Shown here: positions 8,145-27,428 of the stretch, in pieces
Numbering within the stretch: position 1 is the first letter of the stretch
How the letters are laid out: the number at the start of each line of letters is the position of its first letter
Virus record (IMG/VR): IMGVR_UViG_3300020438_000063
Coordinates: 1-48,763 of that record
DNA from: a virus
Length of the DNA stretch: 48,763 bases
Direction: 5' to 3' (one strand)
Program-made: the position numbers and the translations under genes
Notes under the pieces: model-generated
Told to the model about the DNA's origin: nothing
Database searches by the model: none
Seen by the model: the letters and a program-made list of their open reading frames with translations, nothing else

Positions 8145-8498
8145 ATGGAATTAATAATATTACTTGGATTACTTTGGGCATGGGACGGAAACCTATGGGA
8201 ACAATATGATTCAGAAGAAACTGTAGAAGAAACTGCAGAAGTTGTAGTTGAAACTCCAGTACCAGATACTGCAGTCGATGTTACACAAGTAACTCAAACA
8301 GCAGCAGTACTTACAGCAGTTGCTGAATCATTAAGTGGTACATCAACAAGTACATCAACAAGTACATCAACAGACGCTGAAATAGAAGCTCAGATTATTG
8401 AAGAGCTAGAAAATATGGACGTAACAACAACAACTGTTCCTACTACTACAACTAGCAGTGGAACATCAACATCAACAAGTACATCAACAGGAACATAA
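8145..8498 (+). CDS. Ser/Thr-repeat protein with hydrophobic N-terminus
   Basis: A 117-residue protein with a short hydrophobic start (MELIILLGLLWAWDG) that could be a signal or anchor, followed by an acidic Val/Glu/Thr stretch and two Ser-Thr repeat blocks (GTSTSTSTSTST, and GTSTSTSTSTGT at the C-terminus) plus TTTTVPTTTTS. The DNA repeats the hexamer acatca/agtacatca. Such tracts are typical of extended surface linkers. It is translationally coupled to the cytochrome gene (TAATG), so both may act at the membrane or periplasm. Function is unknown. Confidence 0.7.
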   Translation: MELIILLGLLWAWDGNLWEQYDSEETVEETAEVVVETPVPDTAVDVTQVTQTAAVLTAVAESLSGTSTSTSTSTSTDAEIEAQIIEELENMDVTTTTVPTTTTSSGTSTSTSTSTGT

Positions 8499-8941
8499 TG
8501 AAAGAATTAGGAATGAGTTTAATGGGATGTTTAGCAATAGGACTATTCTTTGTTGCTAAAGTCTATCCAAATCTACAGCATACTGGAGCGCCAAGTCATA
8601 TGAAATGCATCGATGAATGCTATGAAGAATATGTAAGAGTGAATGGTACAGTAGTTGAGATAGAACAACGTAAAAGAGAACTTGCTAATGCAGATGAGTT
8701 TAGTTCTATTAGAAGTTTATGGGCTGGATGCGCAGCATGTCATGGAGCTGATGGTCAAGGAATGGCAGTCTTTCCAAAACTTGCAGGCCAAAATAAAGAT
8801 TATATCGTAAGTAGATTAACTGCTTACAAAAATAGAGAGCAAGTTGGACCAATGAGTTCAACAATGTGGAGTCAAGCAGGTATGCTATCAGATAATGATA
8901 TAGATACTATAGGAAAATTCATACAGGAGACGATGAAATGA
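8498..8941 (+). CDS. membrane-anchored class I cytochrome c
   Basis: A 147-residue protein with an N-terminal membrane segment (residues about 7-24, uncleaved anchor or signal) and a cytochrome c domain. The heme motif is C78-A-A-C81-H82 in WAGCAACHGADGQGM, followed by KLAGQNKDYIVSRLTAYKNR and a Met-rich loop (GPMSSTMWSQAGM) that offers an axial ligand. The helix NDIDTIGKFIQETMK closes the fold. It would carry electrons in the periplasm and needs host heme-attachment machinery. The extra segment before the domain has two Cys (CIDEC). Phage-encoded cytochromes c are unusual. ATGA coupling to the glutaredoxin gene suggests a redox operon. Confidence 0.88.
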   Translation: MKELGMSLMGCLAIGLFFVAKVYPNLQHTGAPSHMKCIDECYEEYVRVNGTVVEIEQRKRELANADEFSSIRSLWAGCAACHGADGQGMAVFPKLAGQNKDYIVSRLTAYKNREQVGPMSSTMWSQAGMLSDNDIDTIGKFIQETMK

Positions 8942-18809: not shown

Positions 18810-19041
18810 ATACACAAAAACAATTCAATTACATGTAGGTCTTATTACAGGCCTTCATGTTATTGTCTTATCAATTTTATCATACCCATTTTTCATGTTA
18901 GTCTGTGCAATATTTTGTACTTTAATAGGATTAAAATGTCAATACGAGTGGGTAACTATTATGGAAGAGCATGAGAATGATTATCATCTTATTATAAATA
19001 ATAGTAGGGATAGTATGGCAGATGGTCTACTATCAAAATAA
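18796..19041 (+). CDS. two-span membrane protein, holin candidate
   Basis: An 81-residue protein from ATG 18796; the longer in-frame reading from 18730 lies inside the previous gene. Two hydrophobic segments (residues about 12-31 and 33-48: LITGLHVIVLSILSYPFF and MLVCAIFCTLIGL) precede a polar tail. Two-span proteins of this size beside an endolysin are often holins. No sequence family is recognised. Confidence 0.5.
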   Translation: MILSKYTKTIQLHVGLITGLHVIVLSILSYPFFMLVCAIFCTLIGLKCQYEWVTIMEEHENDYHLIINNSRDSMADGLLSK

Positions 19042-19058
19042 AAGCAATGGAGAATATA

Positions 19059-19364
19059 ATGCAAAATTTATTTACTCTGTTCGTCGGATTAGTTCTTATT
19101 ACGAACTGTGCTTCAATTGGAAGCGTCGTAGAAGGAACCAAGGAGTTTACAACTGGAGTTGTTGACGGTGCTGTAAAAGGTACTTCAACTGTTATTTCAG
19201 CTGTAGCTTCGGATGTAGTATCCACTGGTGAATTCGTTGTTGAAACAGCTGTTGATGTAGGTAAAACTGCAGTCAATACTGGTACTGGAGTTGTTCAAAA
19301 AGCAGCTAACAGGATCGACGAAGAAACTGACAAACTACAAACTCCTCAACCTGAGGGAAAGTAG
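19059..19364 (+). CDS. putative lipoprotein, zero-frame product
   Basis: A 101-residue protein from ATG 19059, with GGAGA at 19051-19055; an ATG at 19047 is also in frame. The hydrophobic N-terminus ends in LITNCASIG, a lipobox-like site with an atypical Asn before the Cys. The mature part is Val/Thr/Gly-rich with repeating VVxGxVKGTSTVISAVAS-like pieces. The gene ends GAG GGA AAG TAG, which contains the slippery heptamer GGGAAAG immediately before the stop, followed by a stem-loop. A longer -1 frameshift product is therefore likely. Confidence 0.65.
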   Translation: MQNLFTLFVGLVLITNCASIGSVVEGTKEFTTGVVDGAVKGTSTVISAVASDVVSTGEFVVETAVDVGKTAVNTGTGVVQKAANRIDEETDKLQTPQPEGK

Positions 19365-19420
19365 CTTGGTCTCTCTTTCCACAATATCCTAAACAACAAA
19401 AGGATATCGAAAAAGAGAGA
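19355..19420 (+). promoter_or_regulatory. -1 ribosomal frameshift signal
   Basis: Slippery heptamer G GGA AAG at 19355-19361 in the zero frame, the same heptamer used by the phage lambda G/GT switch. After an 8-nt spacer comes a nested stem: 19370-19378 pairs with 19412-19420 (9 bp), then ATATCCT 19384-19390 pairs with AGGATAT 19401-19407 (7 bp) around a 10-nt loop. The stop TAG is inside the spacer. Confidence 0.7.
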
Positions 19421-19513
19421 GTAGTAGTTGGAGAAGCAACTAATGATATAACAGTTATCATAAAAATTGTGAAACGCTACTGTACGCAATATCCGGAAGA
19501 GTGCGAACAATAA
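19361..19513 (+). CDS. -1 frameshift extension of the lipoprotein gene
   Basis: After a -1 slip on GGGAAAG (19355-19361), translation continues for 50 codons to TAA 19511-19513. The extension starts VAWSLFPQYPKQQKDIEKER and ends IKIVKRYCTQYPEECEQ, with two Cys that could pair. It has no in-frame start codon with a ribosome site near its beginning, so an independent gene is unlikely. The full fusion would have 151 residues. A sequencing indel is the alternative explanation. Confidence 0.6.
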   Translation, partial: VAWSLFPQYPKQQKDIEKERVVVGEATNDITVIIKIVKRYCTQYPEECEQ

Positions 19514-19516
19514 ACT

Positions 19517-19543
19517 AAAGGGATCTTTTAGGTCCCTTTTTTT
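19517..19543 (+). terminator. Rho-independent terminator
   Basis: AAAGGGA pairs with TCCCTTT around a short loop and runs into a seven-T tract (19537-19543). It ends the lysozyme/lipoprotein transcript, immediately after the frameshift ORF stop, and precedes a late promoter. Confidence 0.85.
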
Positions 19544-19564
19544 ATGTCTTAGCGTTACAGCTAT

Positions 19565-19572
19565 TATAAATA
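19565..19572 (+). promoter_or_regulatory. T4-type late promoter
   Basis: TATAAATA 31 nt before ATG 19604, which has AGAGGAAA upstream. It sits right after a terminator and opens the transcription unit leading into the curli-type genes. Confidence 0.7.
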
Positions 19573-19603
19573 ACCATATAGATTTTTAATAGAGGAAAAA
19601 ACA

Positions 19604-19858
19604 ATGGCAAGTACAATTAAATTATTAGGTTCAGAAGGCAATTTAGGCTCAGCATCTAATGTAGGATTTGCAAAAGTGGTAAGAGTATTGAACAATAAAA
19701 CAGCTGTTCAGGCAATCACTTGGAAAAATGCAGGTGGAACAACTTTAGGAACAATTACTTTGAAAGCAGCAGAAGTAGCTTATATAGAAAAAGCTTCTAC
19801 TGATACATTAACTGGTGTCGCAACTTCTTTAGCTGTAGGTGTTGCTTATAGTAACTAA
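19604..19858 (+). CDS. small virion-associated type protein
   Basis: An 84-residue beta-rich protein with ASTIKLLGSEGNLGSASNVG at the start, AKVVRVLNN, and a C-terminus TSLAVGVAYSN. I recall short proteins of this type (GS..NL..A..V..A.VVRV) as abundant virion or decoration proteins in marine T4-like phages. The late promoter fits a structural role. TAATG couples it to the next gene. Confidence 0.65.
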   Translation: MASTIKLLGSEGNLGSASNVGFAKVVRVLNNKTAVQAITWKNAGGTTLGTITLKAAEVAYIEKASTDTLTGVATSLAVGVAYSN

Positions 19859-20154
19859 TGGAAGATGTCTTTACACTTATCTCCGAAGTAGGTTTACCTA
19901 TAGCTGGAGCTTTAGTAATGGGATTCTTCATTTTTACAATCATCAAACAGATTTTAGAAGGAGTCGTTGATGATATTAAGACGCTTACAATGTTTTGTTC
20001 TAGTTTAGAAAATAGAGCAAGAACAATGAGTAATGAAATGGTCAAGATAGACTTACTCGTAAGTAGCGCATTAGAATTAAGACCAGATATCGAAAGAATA
20101 GCTCGCGCAGAGAACTTTATCGAAGATGGTAAACTTGACGTAAGAAGAGATTAA
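19858..20154 (+). CDS. single-span membrane protein
   Basis: A 98-residue protein with an N-terminal membrane segment (residues about 12-35, GLPIAGALVMGFFIFTIIKQ) and an amphipathic helical cytoplasmic or periplasmic part. It resembles the next gene product in layout (short acidic start, one span, then a helix ending near ALELRPDIERIARAE), which suggests old paralogues. A holin-like or YvrJ-like role is possible. Confidence 0.6.
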   Translation: MEDVFTLISEVGLPIAGALVMGFFIFTIIKQILEGVVDDIKTLTMFCSSLENRARTMSNEMVKIDLLVSSALELRPDIERIARAENFIEDGKLDVRRD

Positions 20155-20155
20155 T

Positions 20156-20416
20156 ATGGATATTGCGCAATTAATTGCCGATTTTGGCTTTCCAACAGTA
20201 ATGGTTGTAGGTTTAGGCTATTTTGTTTACTTTGTATATAACTTTATTCAAGAACATCTAGATCCAGCAACAGAAAAAATGCATTTTCAATTAATTCGAG
20301 TCATTGATCAGATGAGAATGTTAGATCAAGACCTTATAAGATTACAACAAAAAGTAGACGTGGTATTGGAATACAGAGAAAATGAAAAGAAAAAGAGTAG
20401 ACAAAATGAAGAGTAA
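20156..20416 (+). CDS. single-span membrane protein, paralogue-like
   Basis: An 86-residue protein with one N-terminal span (LIADFGFPTVMVVGLGYFVY) followed by a helix (MLDQDLIRLQQKVDVVLEYR). The GFP-x2-M/V-x-G span is like YvrJ-type small membrane proteins. It lies one base after the previous gene and overlaps csgF by 11 nt, so these two small proteins are co-expressed with the curli-type genes. Confidence 0.6.
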   Translation: MDIAQLIADFGFPTVMVVGLGYFVYFVYNFIQEHLDPATEKMHFQLIRVIDQMRMLDQDLIRLQQKVDVVLEYRENEKKKSRQNEE

Positions 20417-20924
20417 CGCTGAATTATTAACACTTATTAGCGTCTTCGTCGTATCAATTATGGCTATTACTCCTGCTAACGCCACAGAAATTGTACACAA
20501 GTTTAAAAATCCTTCCTTTAGTGGACAAGGTACAGCATCTCATTATCTTACAGTAGAAAACCAAGAGTTCTCTCGTAAGAAATCAATAGAAGAAGCATTA
20601 GCTGCAGCAGAAAAAGCAGCACAAAGAGAAGCTGATAATACGACATTAGCAAAATTCATTCGTAACTTAGAATCAAGAATATATGCTCAAATGTCGAAAC
20701 AACTTGTAGAAAGTATGTTTCAAAATGATAATGCTGTAAGATTTGGATCTTTTACATTAGAAGGTTCAATAGTAACATATGAAGTGATAACCAATGCAGA
20801 TGGTTCAGAATTTATTAAAATGACTATAGTAGATACCGACGGTACGGAAACAATAATTGAAATCCCAATCGGTAGTGGATATTTCGGGAGCGACTATGGT
20901 ACGACACCACCTGACGGCGGCTAG
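20406..20924 (+). CDS. csgF: curli assembly factor CsgF-like
   Basis: A 172-residue exported protein from ATG 20406 (20382 is an in-frame alternative). A signal peptide is followed by VHKFKNPSFSGQG, the conserved CsgF N-terminus that binds inside the CsgG pore. The C-terminal region (FGSFTLEGSIVTYEVITNAD, then TETIIEIPI) is the second CsgF block. In E. coli CsgF (138 aa) couples curlin secretion to nucleation at the cell surface. The Lys/Ala-rich helix of residues 55-105 is longer than usual. csgG follows with a 29-nt overlap. Confidence 0.88.
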   Translation: MKSNAELLTLISVFVVSIMAITPANATEIVHKFKNPSFSGQGTASHYLTVENQEFSRKKSIEEALAAAEKAAQREADNTTLAKFIRNLESRIYAQMSKQLVESMFQNDNAVRFGSFTLEGSIVTYEVITNADGSEFIKMTIVDTDGTETIIEIPIGSGYFGSDYGTTPPDGG

Positions 20925-21819
20925 TTTAGCAGTCATTATATTACTGTCTAGCTGTGCTCAAATACCAAGATACACAGAAGATCCGACTATCTGTAATCCA
21001 GATATGTGGGGTGATCAATATAATCATAATGTAGTTGAATGGGTTAAAGCAAGCGGTAGAGTATTTAAAAAAGCCATGCCATACATCTGCGTTGATGTAC
21101 CTGAAATTGTTAATATGCCGTCATACTTTCAATTATTAGATATACCACCAGCTGATAAAAAACCAGTTGTAGCAGTTTATAAATTCCAAGACCTAACAGG
21201 ACAAAGAAAAGCTCTTGATGGTATTGCCTCATTTAGTACTGCAGTAACACAAGGTGCTGATGCTATGTTAATTGATGCATTAAAGAGCGCAGGTGGAGGA
21301 ACTTGGTTCCGCGTGGTAGAGCGACAAGGATTAGACCACCTTGTACGAGAAAGACAAATTATACGAAGTGCACGCCAAGATATTGCAAAGGCAAAAGGCG
21401 AAGACGAAGCACAAGGAATACAACCAATGTTATTTGCTGGAATGATTATAGAAGGCGGTATTATTGGTTACGATACTAACATCTTATCTGGTGGACGAGG
21501 CGCACGGACTCTGGGTATAGGTGCAAGTAGACAATATCGTAAAGATGTTGTCACAATCTCTATAAGAGCTGTTTCAGTTCTGACTGGAGAGGTTTTATTA
21601 AACGTCCAAAGTAAGAAGACTATCCTATCTTACGGCAGTGGAGGAGACGTATTTAGGTTCATAGAACAAGGTACGCAATTAATAGAGTATGAGGACGGAG
21701 TGGGTAAAAATGAGTCAGTGACATATGCAGTACGATCAGCTATTGAAGCAGGAGTACTAGAATTAATCAACCAAGGACATGATAGAGGTTTTTGGGTTAT
21801 AAAAGGAAAAGAAAAATGA
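20896..21819 (+). CDS. csgG: curli secretion channel CsgG-like lipoprotein
   Basis: A 307-residue lipoprotein from ATG 20896, with GGGAG upstream; an in-frame TTG at 20857 is inside csgF. The lipobox is LLSSCAQIPR. The CsgG core is clear: KPVVAVYKFQDLTGQRK, then WFRVVERQGLDHLVRERQII, the pore-loop region FAGMIIEGGIIGYDTNILSG, and YRKDVVTISIRAVSVLTGEV. CsgG forms a nonameric outer-membrane pore for unfolded curlin. An additional N-terminal 50 residues (with CNPDMWGDQYNHNVVEW) are not in E. coli CsgG. I recall csgGF pairs reported in some SAR11 phages, so the pair itself is not new. Confidence 0.94.
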   Translation: MVRHHLTAASLAVIILLSSCAQIPRYTEDPTICNPDMWGDQYNHNVVEWVKASGRVFKKAMPYICVDVPEIVNMPSYFQLLDIPPADKKPVVAVYKFQDLTGQRKALDGIASFSTAVTQGADAMLIDALKSAGGGTWFRVVERQGLDHLVRERQIIRSARQDIAKAKGEDEAQGIQPMLFAGMIIEGGIIGYDTNILSGGRGARTLGIGASRQYRKDVVTISIRAVSVLTGEVLLNVQSKKTILSYGSGGDVFRFIEQGTQLIEYEDGVGKNESVTYAVRSAIEAGVLELINQGHDRGFWVIKGKEK

Positions 21820-22541
21820 TAAAATATATATTAGGCCTAAGCTTATTTTTCAGTTCTTTGACTTTTGCACAAGCATCTGATGATAATGAAATTAATATTA
21901 CACAAGTTGGTGATACATTAACTTTGTATATTGACCAAGTAGGATATGGTAACAAGATTGGACTAGATAACTTTAGTTCATCTTCGTCTGCTTCTCCAAT
22001 TACTGGTTCTTCATTAACTTTCAATATCGATCAGTTAGGTAACGAGAACTTACTCTTTGGTAAGGTCACAGCAGACTCATCATCATACACTTTAGAGTGG
22101 AATGGCGATAGTAATGTTTGGGACTGGATGATAGGACAATCTGGTTCATCAGATAGTTCAAATTTTCTGGTTGATATTACTGGAGATTCAAATACAATGG
22201 ATTTGGATCAAGGTTCTTTAGCTAGTGCAGAAAGATTAGACTTTGACTTAACAGTGTTAGGTAGTTCAAATGTATTTGATGTTGATGTAGAAACTGATGA
22301 TGTCACATGGAATTTTGACATTACTGGTAGTACAAATAATATTAATACTTTACAAAAAGATGGATTCTATCAAGAGATTAATTTTACTCTTGACGGTTCT
22401 GGAGCCGATGTAGACATTAACCAATTATCTGGTACATGTCCTACTGGCATTTCAGCTTGTAAAGGTATTATCACACTTGATGTAGATAGTGAAAATGCAA
22501 CAATTCAAATCAATCAAAAAGATACAGCTGGCGATAGTTAA
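21816..22541 (+). CDS. curlin-repeat protein (CsgA/CsgB-like)
   Basis: A 241-residue secreted protein from ATG 21816 (ATGA on the csgG stop). The signal peptide runs to about residue 21 (SLFFSSLTFAQA). The mature part has degenerate curlin repeats: EINITQVGDTLTLYIDQVGY, LTFNIDQLGNEN, SNTMDLDQGS and ENATIQINQ. Asn and Gln at repeat ladders are the hallmark of curli amyloid, which CsgG secretes. The protein is unusually Asp/Ser-rich. One Cys pair (CPTGISAC) is near the C-terminus. It is probably the CsgG/CsgF substrate, by context. Confidence 0.8.
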   Translation: MIKYILGLSLFFSSLTFAQASDDNEINITQVGDTLTLYIDQVGYGNKIGLDNFSSSSSASPITGSSLTFNIDQLGNENLLFGKVTADSSSYTLEWNGDSNVWDWMIGQSGSSDSSNFLVDITGDSNTMDLDQGSLASAERLDFDLTVLGSSNVFDVDVETDDVTWNFDITGSTNNINTLQKDGFYQEINFTLDGSGADVDINQLSGTCPTGISACKGIITLDVDSENATIQINQKDTAGDS

Positions 22542-23649
22542 TTTTTTACTCATAGGGTCCGTTTCGGCGGACTCTATCGGGTCTATAATAGAACAATCAG
22601 GTTCTGCTCAACTCAAAAGACAACAAGAAGAAATAATAATTACAGAAGAGTCTCTGCCTGAGATCGAATTGAATGATGTGGCAGAAACAGCGAATGGTAA
22701 ACTTAAAATAAAGTTTTTAGATAATGCTCAATTAGATATTAAAGAACATAGTGAAGTATTAATTGATGAGATCTATTACGATCCTGATCCTTCACTCTCT
22801 AAAATGTCAATGAAATTTACAATGGGAACAGCAAGATTTGCTTCAGGTTCTCTTGGATTAGTAAATAAAGCAAACATTGATATACAAACACCAACAGCCA
22901 CGATTGGTATTCGTGGTACAGATTTCACTACAACAATTGATGAACTTGGTAGAAGTTTAATTATGTTATTGCCAGATGCGAATGGTGATCCATCTGGAGA
23001 GATTACAGTAACAAATGAAGCTGGAGTTATTACTCTGAATCAAGCGTATCAAGCAACAATGGTACAAAGTTTAAATACAATGCCAACAAAGCCAGTTACG
23101 ATTGGTGGTATTACTCCATCGATGATTGATAACATGTTTATCGTGAATCCACCAACAGAAGTAAAACAAGCCATACAAGACCAAGTGGATAATGATTTAA
23201 ATAAAGATCAAGGAATATTAGATGTTGATTTTTTAGAGTATAATGAATTGGATAAAACCATAGATGATTATTACGAAGAGGATAAAGACTATAATCGTAT
23301 TGATGTCGACTTTTTAGCAGGCGAATTCCTACCAGATTTGTTAGATGTGGTAGAAGAATTAGTAAAAACCAAAAGGGTTCTTGGAGATAAACAAGCTTCA
23401 TCAAGCTCTGGTGGATCAGCTGGGTTTAAACTTGAGGGTGCAACACTTGGCTTAAATAAAGATAGCCAATATAATGTATTCCTTGAAGATGGCGGTATTA
23501 TATTCTATCGAGATGTAAATGGTATTATTAATCTTAAGTTCGAAGCAGGAGCTGAGGTAACACTTAATACTATTGTTGATGGATATGAAGGAACAATACG
23601 AATGAACGGTGGTGATGATATAAATATATACATAAGGCAGGTAAATTAA
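22495..23649 (+). CDS. FecR-domain periplasmic protein
   Basis: A 384-residue exported protein; ATG 22495 overlaps the end of the curlin-like gene in another frame, and GTG 22489 is an alternative. The signal peptide ends near FLLIGSVSADS. The FecR domain covers about residues 30-190: GKLKIKFLDNAQLDIKEHSE, MGTARFASG and the family hallmark IQTPTATIGIRGTDF. The last 170 residues are acidic with a Ser/Gly linker (SSSSGGSAG) and a beta-rich end. FecR domains sense envelope or ligand states, and stand-alone versions often neighbour CHASE2 cyclases in bacteria; one follows here at 25.3 kb. Confidence 0.85.
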   Translation: MQQFKSIKKIQLAIVNFLLIGSVSADSIGSIIEQSGSAQLKRQQEEIIITEESLPEIELNDVAETANGKLKIKFLDNAQLDIKEHSEVLIDEIYYDPDPSLSKMSMKFTMGTARFASGSLGLVNKANIDIQTPTATIGIRGTDFTTTIDELGRSLIMLLPDANGDPSGEITVTNEAGVITLNQAYQATMVQSLNTMPTKPVTIGGITPSMIDNMFIVNPPTEVKQAIQDQVDNDLNKDQGILDVDFLEYNELDKTIDDYYEEDKDYNRIDVDFLAGEFLPDLLDVVEELVKTKRVLGDKQASSSSGGSAGFKLEGATLGLNKDSQYNVFLEDGGIIFYRDVNGIINLKFEAGAEVTLNTIVDGYEGTIRMNGGDDINIYIRQVN

Positions 23650-24296
23650 TGAAAACAATAGCATATATATGGCTCATTTCTTTTTGCACTCTTGCATTTG
23701 CAGGAGATAATCATGTGCATATAGAACAGGTCAATGGTGGAGATAACGTCGATATTGAGATCACTCAAATTGGATATGATAACGAAATAAAATTTTCATT
23801 TGATCATCAAAATAATATATTTGATTTAAGCCAAACTGGAAACGGAAATTCTATATCATGGGTTTCATATTGGGGACCAGGCAAAAGTTGGGGTGGTGAT
23901 GTTGATGGCACAAACAATAACGAATCAGTAATTCAACTTAATGGTGCAACTTATGGTCGACATATATGGGGCAATAGTAATGATGTTGATGTATATCAAA
24001 ATGGAACACATACTCATAACTTAGATTTACATGCAAGTTCAGTAGATCATGACCTATGGCAAGAAGGAAGTGGTAGTCATTATAATCATACTTATTTTTA
24101 TGGCTCATCATCTTATTCAGATACGAATATAATGCAAAAAGGAACTGGTTCGCATAACTCTCAAGTAACATTAACGGGTTCATATGCAACTACATTAAAC
24201 GTATTACAACAAGGATCAGTAAATCAAACATATAGTTTAACACAAAACTGCCAAACAAGTAATGGTTGTTCAGTTTCAGTAACACAAGGAAATTAA
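23649..24296 (+). CDS. second curlin-repeat protein
   Basis: A 215-residue secreted protein with a signal peptide (IAYIWLISFCTLAFAG) and curlin-type repeats: NVDIEITQIGYDNEIKFSF, NNIFDLSQTGNGNSI, SVIQLNGAT, NVLQQGSVNQTYSLTQ. It is rich in His, Gly and Ser (THTHNLDLHASSVDHDLW), which differs from its homologue at 21.8 kb. Two Cys lie in CQTSNGCSV at the C-terminus, like the Cys pair of the first one. The two could be major and minor (nucleator) subunits, as with CsgA and CsgB. Confidence 0.8.
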   Translation: MKTIAYIWLISFCTLAFAGDNHVHIEQVNGGDNVDIEITQIGYDNEIKFSFDHQNNIFDLSQTGNGNSISWVSYWGPGKSWGGDVDGTNNNESVIQLNGATYGRHIWGNSNDVDVYQNGTHTHNLDLHASSVDHDLWQEGSGSHYNHTYFYGSSSYSDTNIMQKGTGSHNSQVTLTGSYATTLNVLQQGSVNQTYSLTQNCQTSNGCSVSVTQGN

Positions 24297-24297
24297 C

Positions 24298-24564
24298 ATG
24301 ATAGAATGTCCACCAGAGTTTTACGAATGTCTTACCGAAGAAGAGTACGATGAGATTCTAGAAATCTTCGAAGAGAATGATATGGTTATGCCAGAATCAA
24401 TGGAATCAAGAGGAGACGCAGAAGCTGCAGTGGATTTTGTATGGCAGGTTTTATTCTTGGCACCTTGGGAGCTTGCTTATATAGCATTGCCTATGAGTGT
24501 ATTAGCATTCTACGGACTTTCAATATATACAGTATTTAAAATGATACAAAAGAAATATTCATAA
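24298..24564 (+). CDS. acidic small membrane protein
   Basis: An 88-residue protein. The first 45 residues are acidic with two Cys (ECPPEFYECLTEEEYDEILE). A hydrophobic segment near residues 50-80 (FLAPWELAYIALPMSVLAFY) could cross the membrane once or twice. It lies between the curlin-like and iscU genes, with TAATG coupling to iscU. Function is unknown. Confidence 0.6.
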   Translation: MIECPPEFYECLTEEEYDEILEIFEENDMVMPESMESRGDAEAAVDFVWQVLFLAPWELAYIALPMSVLAFYGLSIYTVFKMIQKKYS

Positions 24565-24986
24565 TGGCATATAGTAAAGAAGTAGTAGACAGATTCGAAT
24601 CAGTATTAGCTAACCCAGCTAAACACTCTGTTGGAAGATTCGATCCAAACGATAAAACAGTTATAACGGGAATGGTCGGCGCTCCAGCTTGTGGCGATGT
24701 CATGAAACTAGATTTAAAGATGAATGGTAACATAATAGAAGACGTTAAGTTTAAAACATACGGCTGTGGTTCAGCAATAGCATCATCAACTCTTTTCGTA
24801 GAGATGTTAAAAGGTAAAACAATAGAAGAAGCTCAAAGTATAAAAGATAAAGATATTGCTGAAGCTTTACAATTACCTGCAATTAAATTACATTGTTCAG
24901 TATTAGCTGAAGATGCAATAAGACAAGCTATTTCAAACTGGAAACCTGATACTATGATCGGGCATAATAATCCACCAAAATCATGA
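24564..24986 (+). CDS. iscU: Fe-S cluster assembly scaffold IscU-like
   Basis: A 140-residue protein with all three cluster cysteines and the conserved Asp: C43 and D45 in VGAPACGDVMKL, C68 in YGCGSAIASS and C111 in KLHCSVLAEDA. LQLPAIKLHC matches the LPPVK chaperone-binding motif with Ala-Ile for Pro-Val. E. coli IscU has 128 residues. It would need host cysteine desulfurase IscS. The C-terminal tail (DTMIGHNNPPKS) contains an IGHNNPP piece, similar to IGHNGGPK in a small ORF at 30.8 kb. ATGA couples it to the carrier gene. Confidence 0.93.
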   Translation: MAYSKEVVDRFESVLANPAKHSVGRFDPNDKTVITGMVGAPACGDVMKLDLKMNGNIIEDVKFKTYGCGSAIASSTLFVEMLKGKTIEEAQSIKDKDIAEALQLPAIKLHCSVLAEDAIRQAISNWKPDTMIGHNNPPKS

Positions 24987-25297
24987 TAGAGATAACAAAT
25001 GAAGCAATTACAAAACTTATACAAAAGACTAAAGGAAAGAGCAATACCATTCGCATTGGCGTCACTGGCGGTGGGTGTGCTGGTTATGAATATATATTTG
25101 ATTATGAATCCACAATACTTGCCGAAGACAATGTGTACAATTTCGGAAAATTCAACATCGTTATTAACAATGAATCATTGCCCTTTTTATCCGATGTCAC
25201 TTTAGACTATATCACTCTTGGTTTAAATGAATCATTCAAAATAATTAATCCGGCTGAAAAATCTGCATGTGGGTGTGGCGTTTCAGTACAATTTTAG
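24983..25297 (+). CDS. A-type Fe-S carrier (IscA/ErpA/HesB-like)
   Basis: A 104-residue protein with the three A-type cysteines C32 (GGGCAGYEYIF) and C96/C98 (SACGCGVSVQF). These carry Fe-S clusters from the scaffold to target enzymes. The fold markers EITNEAITKLI and LDYITLGLNESFKIINP are in place. Paired with iscU by ATGA, it forms a minimal scaffold-carrier module. Whether it is closest to IscA or ErpA cannot be told by eye. Confidence 0.9.
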   Translation: MIEITNEAITKLIQKTKGKSNTIRIGVTGGGCAGYEYIFDYESTILAEDNVYNFGKFNIVINNESLPFLSDVTLDYITLGLNESFKIINPAEKSACGCGVSVQF

Positions 25298-25318: not shown

Positions 25319-27148
25319 ATGAAATATTTAACAAGCATTTGGACAACAATTATATTGGGTATAACACTTTTAGGTGTAAGAATATCTGATCCTCAGTTAG
25401 TTGAACAGTTTAGGTTAAATATATTCGACCAAGTAATACAATCAATGCCAGTAGAACATTCTAATGATATAGTGTTGTTGAACATATCCGAGTCTTCACT
25501 CGAAGCCTATGGGCAATACCCTTGGCCGCGTCAGAATCACGCAGCAGTGATTTCTGATCTGAGGAACGCAAATGCTGGTATGATTGGGTTCACTATTATG
25601 TTTCCAGAGGCTGACAGGTTTGGCGGTGATGAAGTTTTTGCTTCTTGGATTAATGGTAATGGAATAATACTTGCACAAGACGCTGACGAAAATGGAAGAA
25701 GTTCTAAAGCACCTTATGTAGGGTATGCAACATTTGGTTATTCGGGTGATATACTAGATCTTACTTATCGATATAAAGGATTAGTTACTAACATAGAAGA
25801 GTTAGAGAAACATTCATGGGGAGTAGGATTACTTAATGGTGCGCCAGAAGTAGATAATCAGACGCGTAGGATACCATTAATGTCACAAGTCAATGGGAAT
25901 GTCTACCCATCATTTGCACTAGAAACGGTACGAGCACTACAAAATAAGAAATCGTATACTGTTAAATTAAATGAATCAGGAATAGAATCTATTATACTTA
26001 GACCTTTTATAATACCTACTGATGAAAGAGGAAGTATCTGGTTAAAGTGGAATACACATTTTGATAGCTATGATTATGGAAAGCCTTTACCAGATTTAAA
26101 AGGAAAGACAGTTATAATAGGAGTAACGGCTAAAGGTATATCACCTCAGATTACAACTCCAGCTGGACTTCTATATCCTCATCAATTACAAGCGAATGCT
26201 TTGCAGACTATAATATCTGACTCTCCGATATCTCGTCCTCAATGGACATTTGCTGCTGAGTTGGGAATGATTCTGATTGGGAGTCTGCTGATAGTTCTAG
26301 CTGTTTATTATCTACCGATCTGGATAGGACTTGTGTTCTTCGTCGGTTCCGCTGCTGCCGTATGCTACGCTGTTTATTACGCCTGGTACGAATTTTCTAT
26401 ACTCCTCGATTTATCAGCTTCTCTATTAATATATATACTTTTACTCACCTCATCGAGTTTCAATAACTTTTACAAGCAATTTGTTTTACGACAGCAAATA
26501 AAGAAACAGTTTGGCACATATGTATCTCCTGATCTTGTTAAGCAACTACAAGAAGACCCATCATTACTTAAGCTTGGTGGTGAAAGAAAAGACATGACCT
26601 TTATGTTTATGGATATATGTGGATTTACTCCAATATCAGAACACTATAAGAATAATGACGATCCAGAAGGTCTTGTAGTTCTTATAAATAATTATTTAGA
26701 TACCATGACAAAGATTGTTTTAAAGAATGGTGGAACAATAGATAAATTCATGGGTGATTGCATTATGGCATTCTGGAACGCTCCATTGCCATGCGAAGAT
26801 CATCCACAAAAAGCGATAGATACCGCTAGGGAAATTACAGATGCAGCTGACATACTTATTAAAGAACTCGAAAATCAAGGCTTGCCTAGGATTGATATTG
26901 GCATTGGTATCAACACAGGTACTTGCATCGTTGGAAACATGGGATCCGAAGAGCGGTTTGACTATTCCGTTATTGGCGATGCCGTCAACCTTGGGGCTAG
27001 ACTCGAAGGACAAACTCGCAATTACGATGGGGTTCGAGTGTTGCTGGGCCCAGAAACATATCAACGCAGTAAAGACGGAAGCCTCACTTTTGTTGATTCC
27101 ATCCAAGTTAAAGGAAAGTCAGAAAAGGTGGACATTTACACTTGTTAG
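25319..27148 (+). CDS. CHASE2-domain class III adenylate cyclase
   Basis: A 609-residue membrane enzyme predicted to make cAMP. After an N-terminal span (residues 5-22), a periplasmic CHASE2 sensor covers about 25-295 (DIVLLNISESSLEAYGQYPW; LKGKTVIIGVTA). Three or so spans follow (about 308-385), then the cyclase domain from about 395. Catalytic residues are complete: metal-binding D432 (FMFMDICGF) and D480 (FMGD), adenine-selecting K476 and D548 (FDYSVIGDAVN), and the Asn and Arg of VNLGARLE. The Lys/Asp pair favours adenylate over guanylate cyclase. Neighbours are a FecR protein and curli-type genes, which suggests envelope-sensing. Few phages are known to me with such an enzyme. Confidence 0.93.
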   Translation: MKYLTSIWTTIILGITLLGVRISDPQLVEQFRLNIFDQVIQSMPVEHSNDIVLLNISESSLEAYGQYPWPRQNHAAVISDLRNANAGMIGFTIMFPEADRFGGDEVFASWINGNGIILAQDADENGRSSKAPYVGYATFGYSGDILDLTYRYKGLVTNIEELEKHSWGVGLLNGAPEVDNQTRRIPLMSQVNGNVYPSFALETVRALQNKKSYTVKLNESGIESIILRPFIIPTDERGSIWLKWNTHFDSYDYGKPLPDLKGKTVIIGVTAKGISPQITTPAGLLYPHQLQANALQTIISDSPISRPQWTFAAELGMILIGSLLIVLAVYYLPIWIGLVFFVGSAAAVCYAVYYAWYEFSILLDLSASLLIYILLLTSSSFNNFYKQFVLRQQIKKQFGTYVSPDLVKQLQEDPSLLKLGGERKDMTFMFMDICGFTPISEHYKNNDDPEGLVVLINNYLDTMTKIVLKNGGTIDKFMGDCIMAFWNAPLPCEDHPQKAIDTAREITDAADILIKELENQGLPRIDIGIGINTGTCIVGNMGSEERFDYSVIGDAVNLGARLEGQTRNYDGVRVLLGPETYQRSKDGSLTFVDSIQVKGKSEKVDIYTC

Positions 27149-27428
27149 ACAGCCAACAAAAAATCAGTTAGTAACATACTACACTCTTCAATTCTTAGAT
27201 GTTTACACTACCGCAAGAGGTGTAAGAGATTCTAGAGTAAGAGAACTTAATCCAATATATGGCGAAAAACCAACGCCAGGTAAGCTTTTATTAGGCAAAT
27301 CAATTACAACAACATACTTGTTTAATGCGAATCCTACTGCCAATGATATACAATTCATGAACAATCTTCTTCTTATGACTGTTCTTAACAACGTCGACGT
27401 TCTCGAATCACAAAATATAAAATTATAA
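27090..27428 (+). CDS. DUF5658-like protein
   Basis: A 112-residue reading in another frame than the cyclase, with probable TTG start at 27090 or 27093 (GGAAG upstream at 27078-27082). A longer frame extends inside the cyclase gene but is unlikely to be used. The motif YYTLQFLDVYTTARGV followed by ELNPIYGEKPTPGKLLLGKS is the pattern I associate with DUF5658 (membrane-associated, unknown). It overlaps the cyclase end by about 59 nt. Confidence 0.55.
   Translation: MLIPSKLKESQKRWTFTLVRQPTKNQLVTYYTLQFLDVYTTARGVRDSRVRELNPIYGEKPTPGKLLLGKSITTTYLFNANPTANDIQFMNNLLLMTVLNNVDVLESQNIKL

Follow-up and report, generated by a model that had tools for sequence, protein, structure and literature searches.

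A CHASE2 class III cyclase in the pelagiphage-type curli cluster of a marine phage, with a curlin-tailed FecR-domain protein as its candidate partner

The window (the whole stretch of DNA analysed, a virus record of 48,763 bp) belongs to a marine phage that resembles a T4-like myovirus. The closest matches to its baseplate-wedge-like protein come from the Pelagibacter phages Mosig, Melnitz, and HTVC008M, and the nearest named phages are HTVC008M and Melnitz. The window holds 24 copies of the T4-like late promoter core ATAAATA against 31.5 expected, and so shows no enrichment. The curli (type VIII secretion) cluster and the cyclase gene carry the following features:

20382 to 20924, plus strand: CsgF homologue (Pfam, 1.9e-17)
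20857 to 21819, plus strand: CsgG outer-membrane secretion pore homologue (Pfam, 1.2e-52; lipobox LSSC near the N-terminus)
21792 to 22541, plus strand: curlin-repeat protein 1, with signal peptide (Curlin_rpt, 0.0012, sub-threshold in Pfam; sequence)
22489 to 23649, plus strand: FecR-domain protein (Pfam, 6e-8; AlphaFold model; PupR match)
23614 to 23646, plus strand: curlin-like C-terminal strand of the FecR-domain protein, ending INIYIRQVN (motif counts)
23649 to 24296, plus strand: curlin-repeat protein 2, C-terminal CSVSVTQGN (profile match, sequence)
24564 to 24986, plus strand: NifU/IscU-like Fe-S scaffold, between curlin 2 and the cyclase (Pfam, 1.9e-38)
24983 to 25297, plus strand: IscA-like Fe-S carrier (Pfam, 1.7e-12)
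25319 to 27148, plus strand: CHASE2 class III adenylate cyclase, predicted, 609 aa (ORF, Pfam, AlphaFold model, PDB matches)
25361 to 26293, plus strand: CHASE2 sensor match, aa 15-325 (Pfam, 1e-39)
26588 to 27124, plus strand: class III cyclase catalytic domain (Guanylate_cyc), aa 424-602 (Pfam, 7.5e-17; PDB matches)
26612 to 26614, plus strand: D432, metal-binding Asp 1 (invariant in viral homologues)
26744 to 26746, plus strand: K476, base-selecting Lys (invariant in viral homologues)
26756 to 26758, plus strand: D480, metal-binding Asp 2 (invariant in viral homologues)
26966 to 26968, plus strand: S550, second base-selecting position, class IIIb-like (CyaB/OaPAC alignment)
26987 to 27001, plus strand: N557 and R561, transition-state Asn/Arg (viral and bacterial homologue alignments)

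The gene order is csgF-csgG-curlin-fecR-curlin-cyclase, with the cyclase closing the cluster and, here, the NifU- and IscA-like genes preceding it. Gene spacing in the cluster runs from -68 to +21 bp, and these overlaps and short gaps suggest that the cluster is one operon.

The cyclase ORF starts with ATG and has no internal stop. From N- to C-terminus, the AlphaFold model of its product (pLDDT 89) consists of a helix (7-23), a mixed alpha/beta CHASE2 domain, helices at 309-331, 334-359, and 365-398, and the cyclase domain. Pfam and the model together place the CHASE2 domain between an N-terminal transmembrane helix (aa 7-23) and three transmembrane helices from aa 309, making it the predicted periplasmic sensor domain of a membrane-anchored cyclase; no PDB match was reported for this part, which the structure search barely covered. 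The modeled cyclase domain matches that of Pseudomonas aeruginosa CyaB (Z 26.5, 1.7 Å over 183 residues, 41% identity) and also superposes on CyaC. With this fold and the two metal-binding aspartates D432 and D480 present, the protein is a class III nucleotidyl cyclase, and the original prediction of a phage-encoded cyclase with a CHASE2 sensor and membrane spans is supported by Pfam, AlphaFold, the virus record, and the nearest named phages.

D432, K476, and D480 lie where they had been predicted and, with R561, do not vary across the 233 full-length viral homologues (233/233). The Asn and Arg of the VNLGARLE motif are likewise both present, as N557 and R561. The assignment of D548 as the base-selecting residue was wrong: we place that position at Ser550, because this residue sits seven positions N-terminal of the catalytic Asn557 and corresponds to a Thr in the alignments to CyaB and OaPAC. 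In mammalian AC IIC2, D1018 lies seven residues before N1025, a spacing that we take to be the equivalent of 550/557. Among bacterial relatives, 87/87 carry Ser or Thr at the 550-equivalent, together with Asn. Position 550 is Ser in 155/233 viral homologues and Asp in 78/233, and only two residue sets occur, Ser550/Asn557 (155) or Asp550/Ser557 (78, the Melnitz type). When catalytic domains alone are compared, CyaB shares the cyclase fold, the metal Asps, and a base site that pairs Lys with a hydroxyl residue, Thr in CyaB and Ser in the phage cyclase; Spirulina CyaC, again compared by catalytic domain alone, has the cyclase fold in common. Judged by these alignments, the base site Lys476/Ser550 is the Lys/Ser pair of a class IIIb-like adenylate cyclase. 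The earlier claim that a Lys/Asp pair selects ATP stands in part: Lys476 is in place and ATP is still the predicted substrate, but the partner is Ser550 and not Asp. This prediction is made because Glu takes the place of Lys476 in the GTP-specific homologue Cya2, whose structure was solved as that of a guanylyl cyclase; ATP is likely the substrate, with cAMP as the predicted product. Across the Melnitz-type clade (78 viral cyclases, L083 among them), Asp550 is fixed and Ser replaces the catalytic Asn557, a replacement that could possibly mean weak or altered activity.

In pairs with the window sequence, dN/dS was about 0.06-0.21 in both the sensor and the catalytic domains (Nei-Gojobori method, with part of the dS values close to saturation or beyond it), which indicates that the close cyclase relatives are under purifying selection. 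This backs the original remark that nothing indicates decay, and conservation together with dN/dS rules out a decaying gene or a chance ORF.

Viral cyclase loci were counted where 6.5 kb or more of upstream DNA was available; of these 103, FecR was found upstream in 101, curlin in 101, CsgG in 100, and CsgF in 99. Reciprocally, the cyclase was present in 38/39 FecR-anchored and 20/20 CsgG-anchored loci (58/59) that had enough downstream DNA, some of which share contigs with the cyclase search. As read from gene content, these counts show that the cyclase is a near-constant and nearly always the last member of the pelagiphage curli cluster; podophage clusters are under-sampled, because the searches start from this phage lineage. 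The same curli-FecR-cyclase cluster also occurs on two very large IMG/VR contigs (L410, 339,794 bp; L439, 250,519 bp), which may be jumbo phage or misclassified cellular DNA.

A signal-peptide helix (aa 3-21) opens the FecR-domain protein, and the strands of its FecR part begin at aa 31 in the AlphaFold model. The FecR fold (aa 31-192) matches the PupR signalling domain in structure (Z 15.4) and is followed by a linker (aa 217-314), which is acidic (24% Asp/Glu) and modeled with low confidence, and then by a C-terminal beta region of higher model confidence; the structure search, which barely covered this last part, reported no PDB match for it. The periplasmic FecR signalling fold is thus common to the phage protein and the FecR/PupR sigma regulators. 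The phage protein differs in having a signal peptide, a linker, and a curlin-like C-terminus and in lacking the N-terminal cytoplasmic anti-sigma domain and transmembrane helix of those regulators; because the signal peptide starts the protein, there is no cytoplasmic anti-sigma part. The FecR fold also showed a weak match to 5ix9 (Z 6.1, 2.5 Å, 73 residues), a surface-anchoring domain from an antifreeze RTX adhesin, and the same chain matched weakly in a profile search (E 0.096); being below Z 8, the structural match may reflect a common arrangement. At the extreme C-terminus, the curlin-type half-repeat [VIL]x[VIL]xQ is present in 157/159 viral FecRs and in the FecRs of both cellular clusters described below, and it ends 285/339 curlins, against a background of 76/4505 other ORFs and 134/3460 internal FecR 14-mers. 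These counts are descriptive and not an independent test, because the motif was defined after viewing the alignment; the contrast with FecRs near other bacterial CHASE2 cyclases, where it ends 0/11, is the more useful control. Taken together, this is evidence that the protein joins a periplasmic FecR fold to a curlin-type tail through a disordered linker, and that it is not an iron regulator.

A cellular counterpart exists. On L084, a contig from a Caulobacteraceae MAG, the gene order is csgF-csgG-curlin-curlin-fecR-CHASE2 cyclase, with glycosyltransferases and an S9 peptidase on the flanks, and a second Caulobacteraceae-type genome (L353, 82.6-kb contig) has the same gene set, the two cyclases being 93% identical. 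In the phylogeny against bacterial CHASE2 cyclases, which had been proposed as a way to date transfer, these two cellular cyclases fall together with the viral sequences (98-99 SH-aLRT). Viral monophyly was not rejected (AU p 0.68), and transfer between phages and the Caulobacteraceae-type cluster may have gone either way. FecR and cyclase were absent by profile from five other alphaproteobacterial CsgG loci, which is weak evidence because the profiles missed CsgG itself in two of them. Immediate neighbors of bacterial CHASE2 cyclases include FecR in 7/55 cases and ABC transporters in 14/55. In a marine 'Rickettsiales' MAG (L085), a CHASE2 cyclase lies beside cadherin, OEP, and HlyD genes (type I secretion).

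CsgF and CsgG were reported in pelagimyophages in 2020 (PMC7029224) and in Melnitz in 2022, when a lysis-pore role was proposed (PMC9004378). The phage cyclase itself is already known, because the full cluster, including FecR and an adenylate cyclase, was reported in pelagiphages in 2022 (PMC9599517), and the gene, cluster, order (CsgF, CsgG, CsgA/B, FecR, second CsgA/B, AC), and phage groups there are the same as ours. According to that paper, the cluster phylogeny points to Alphaproteobacteria, the genes are expressed in metatranscriptomes, and AC and FecR do not occur within bacterial T8SS operons; the two cellular genomes above are exceptions to this last statement. The main text of PMC9599517 has no occurrence of CHASE2, and the parts considered give no active-site residues, whereas both are assigned here. 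The paper names FecR an iron-dependent regulator, in contrast to the periplasmic fold, linker, and curlin-like tail described above. What is new is the CHASE2/class IIIb assignment, as predicted from sequence and model, the corrected base site, the curlin-type tail of FecR, and the matching cluster in cellular genomes; the location of the cyclase had been published. Full-length homologues at the same cluster position are HTVC008M gp019 (YP_007517885, 43.5% identity) and Melnitz gp104 (36.6% identity), the Melnitz-type enzyme differing in Asp550, Ser557, and a greater length (683 aa). The Burkholderia CHASE2-FecR operon BiofilmReg (PMC5192318) resembles the phage arrangement in its FecR gene beside a CHASE2 sensor and its link to biofilm, but there a histidine kinase bears the CHASE2 domain, and the FecR protein has LysM.

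We propose that the CHASE2 cyclase is the signalling subunit of the phage curli export module, making cAMP and reading export or attachment via FecR, a proposal for and against which we are evenly divided. Inside the infected cell the cyclase would turn ATP into cAMP; in the periplasm, its CHASE2 domain would sense the state of curli export, or of fibre attachment, with the FecR-domain protein as intermediary. The FecR fold would remain periplasmic, being too large for the CsgG pore; the disordered acidic linker of ~100 residues could thread that pore, and the curlin-like C-terminal strand could join or cap the fibre. Such a tether would resemble the retention module that holds an RTX adhesin, and RTX retention domains, which fold internally, are of a size that cannot pass the secretion channel (PMC12077191). 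The cAMP would then act on a target in the host. A more specific version, in which CsgG-threaded FecR tethers the fibre and switches the cyclase across the envelope, cAMP reports assembly outside the cell, and the module is present in a cell lineage too, strikes us as rather unlikely. Against our proposal stand the lack of clumping in Melnitz infections (PMC9004378), the Ser557 of the Melnitz-type cyclases, and the finding of no cAMP receptor in 11 related phage records, some of them fragments.

Linkage alone cannot single out FecR as the CHASE2 input, because curli genes accompany the cyclase too. The cyclase could be curli-linked and still sense a non-FecR input, such as a small molecule, envelope stress, or bicarbonate at the Lys/Ser site, with cAMP setting host expression or timing. 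This we consider possible but somewhat doubtful: no ligand of the CHASE2 family is known (PMC5192318), FecR is missing from the immediate neighborhood of many bacterial CHASE2 cyclases, and bicarbonate-sensitive cyclases are class IIIb, with Thr thought to be predictive of the response (PMC3383692), but FecR accompanies nearly every phage cyclase counted, though the curli genes are equally linked. The original prediction went further and had the phage raise cAMP to reprogram host carbon metabolism or disturb cyclic-nucleotide defence. The cyclase is intact and Pycsar cyclase (PycC) profiles match its catalytic domain (PADLOC), yet these effects find no support and seem improbable, given the fixed place of the gene in the curli cluster, Lys/Ser base residues that suit ATP, no Pycsar-type effector among the scanned neighbors, and no cNMP-binding domain in 11 related phage records, some of which are fragments. 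A Pycsar defence cyclase seems an unlikely identity for the gene, since the PADLOC profiles match only the shared class III domain. Finally, the cyclase might be a passenger kept by linkage, without an infection role of its own, as some phage clusters lack it according to PMC9599517; with dN/dS well under 1 in both domains, an active site fixed in 233 sequences, and a cyclase in all but one of the clusters tested, this is very improbable.

The cAMP target is probably the host's. A SAR11 16S probe matched 0/190 alphaproteobacteria, and an order of 18 genomes, reached via sub-cut-off SAM-V riboswitch matches and left out of the argument on the host, contained no cNMP-binding domain. Curli clusters are widespread in SAR11 and OM43 marine phages, and their function is disputed (sibling capture by fibres, a lysis pore, or uptake). 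The near-constant cyclase and the curlin-tailed FecR make this dispute testable: is FecR a tether and also a switch for the cyclase, and do cAMP levels go up in infection? If our proposal is true, the orphan CHASE2 domain would gain a candidate partner in the FecR-domain protein.

Several further observations concern the window itself. Fe-S genes such as those at 24564-25297 lie within the curli cluster in a minority of the 103 loci (NifU-like, 11/103; IscA-like, 16/103). Compared with a related contig (L003), the curli cluster at 18993-24931 is 92% identical, with flanks mostly at 77-88%, and within the cyclase divergence is greater in the catalytic half than in the sensor half. A low-complexity Thr/Ser-rich ORF (8145-8498) adjoins a cytochrome c-like ORF (8498-8941), as judged by eye on the translated sequence. 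Right after the cyclase, a possible small unannotated gene lies at 26841-27428, its open frame differing from that of the cyclase and overlapping the cyclase end.
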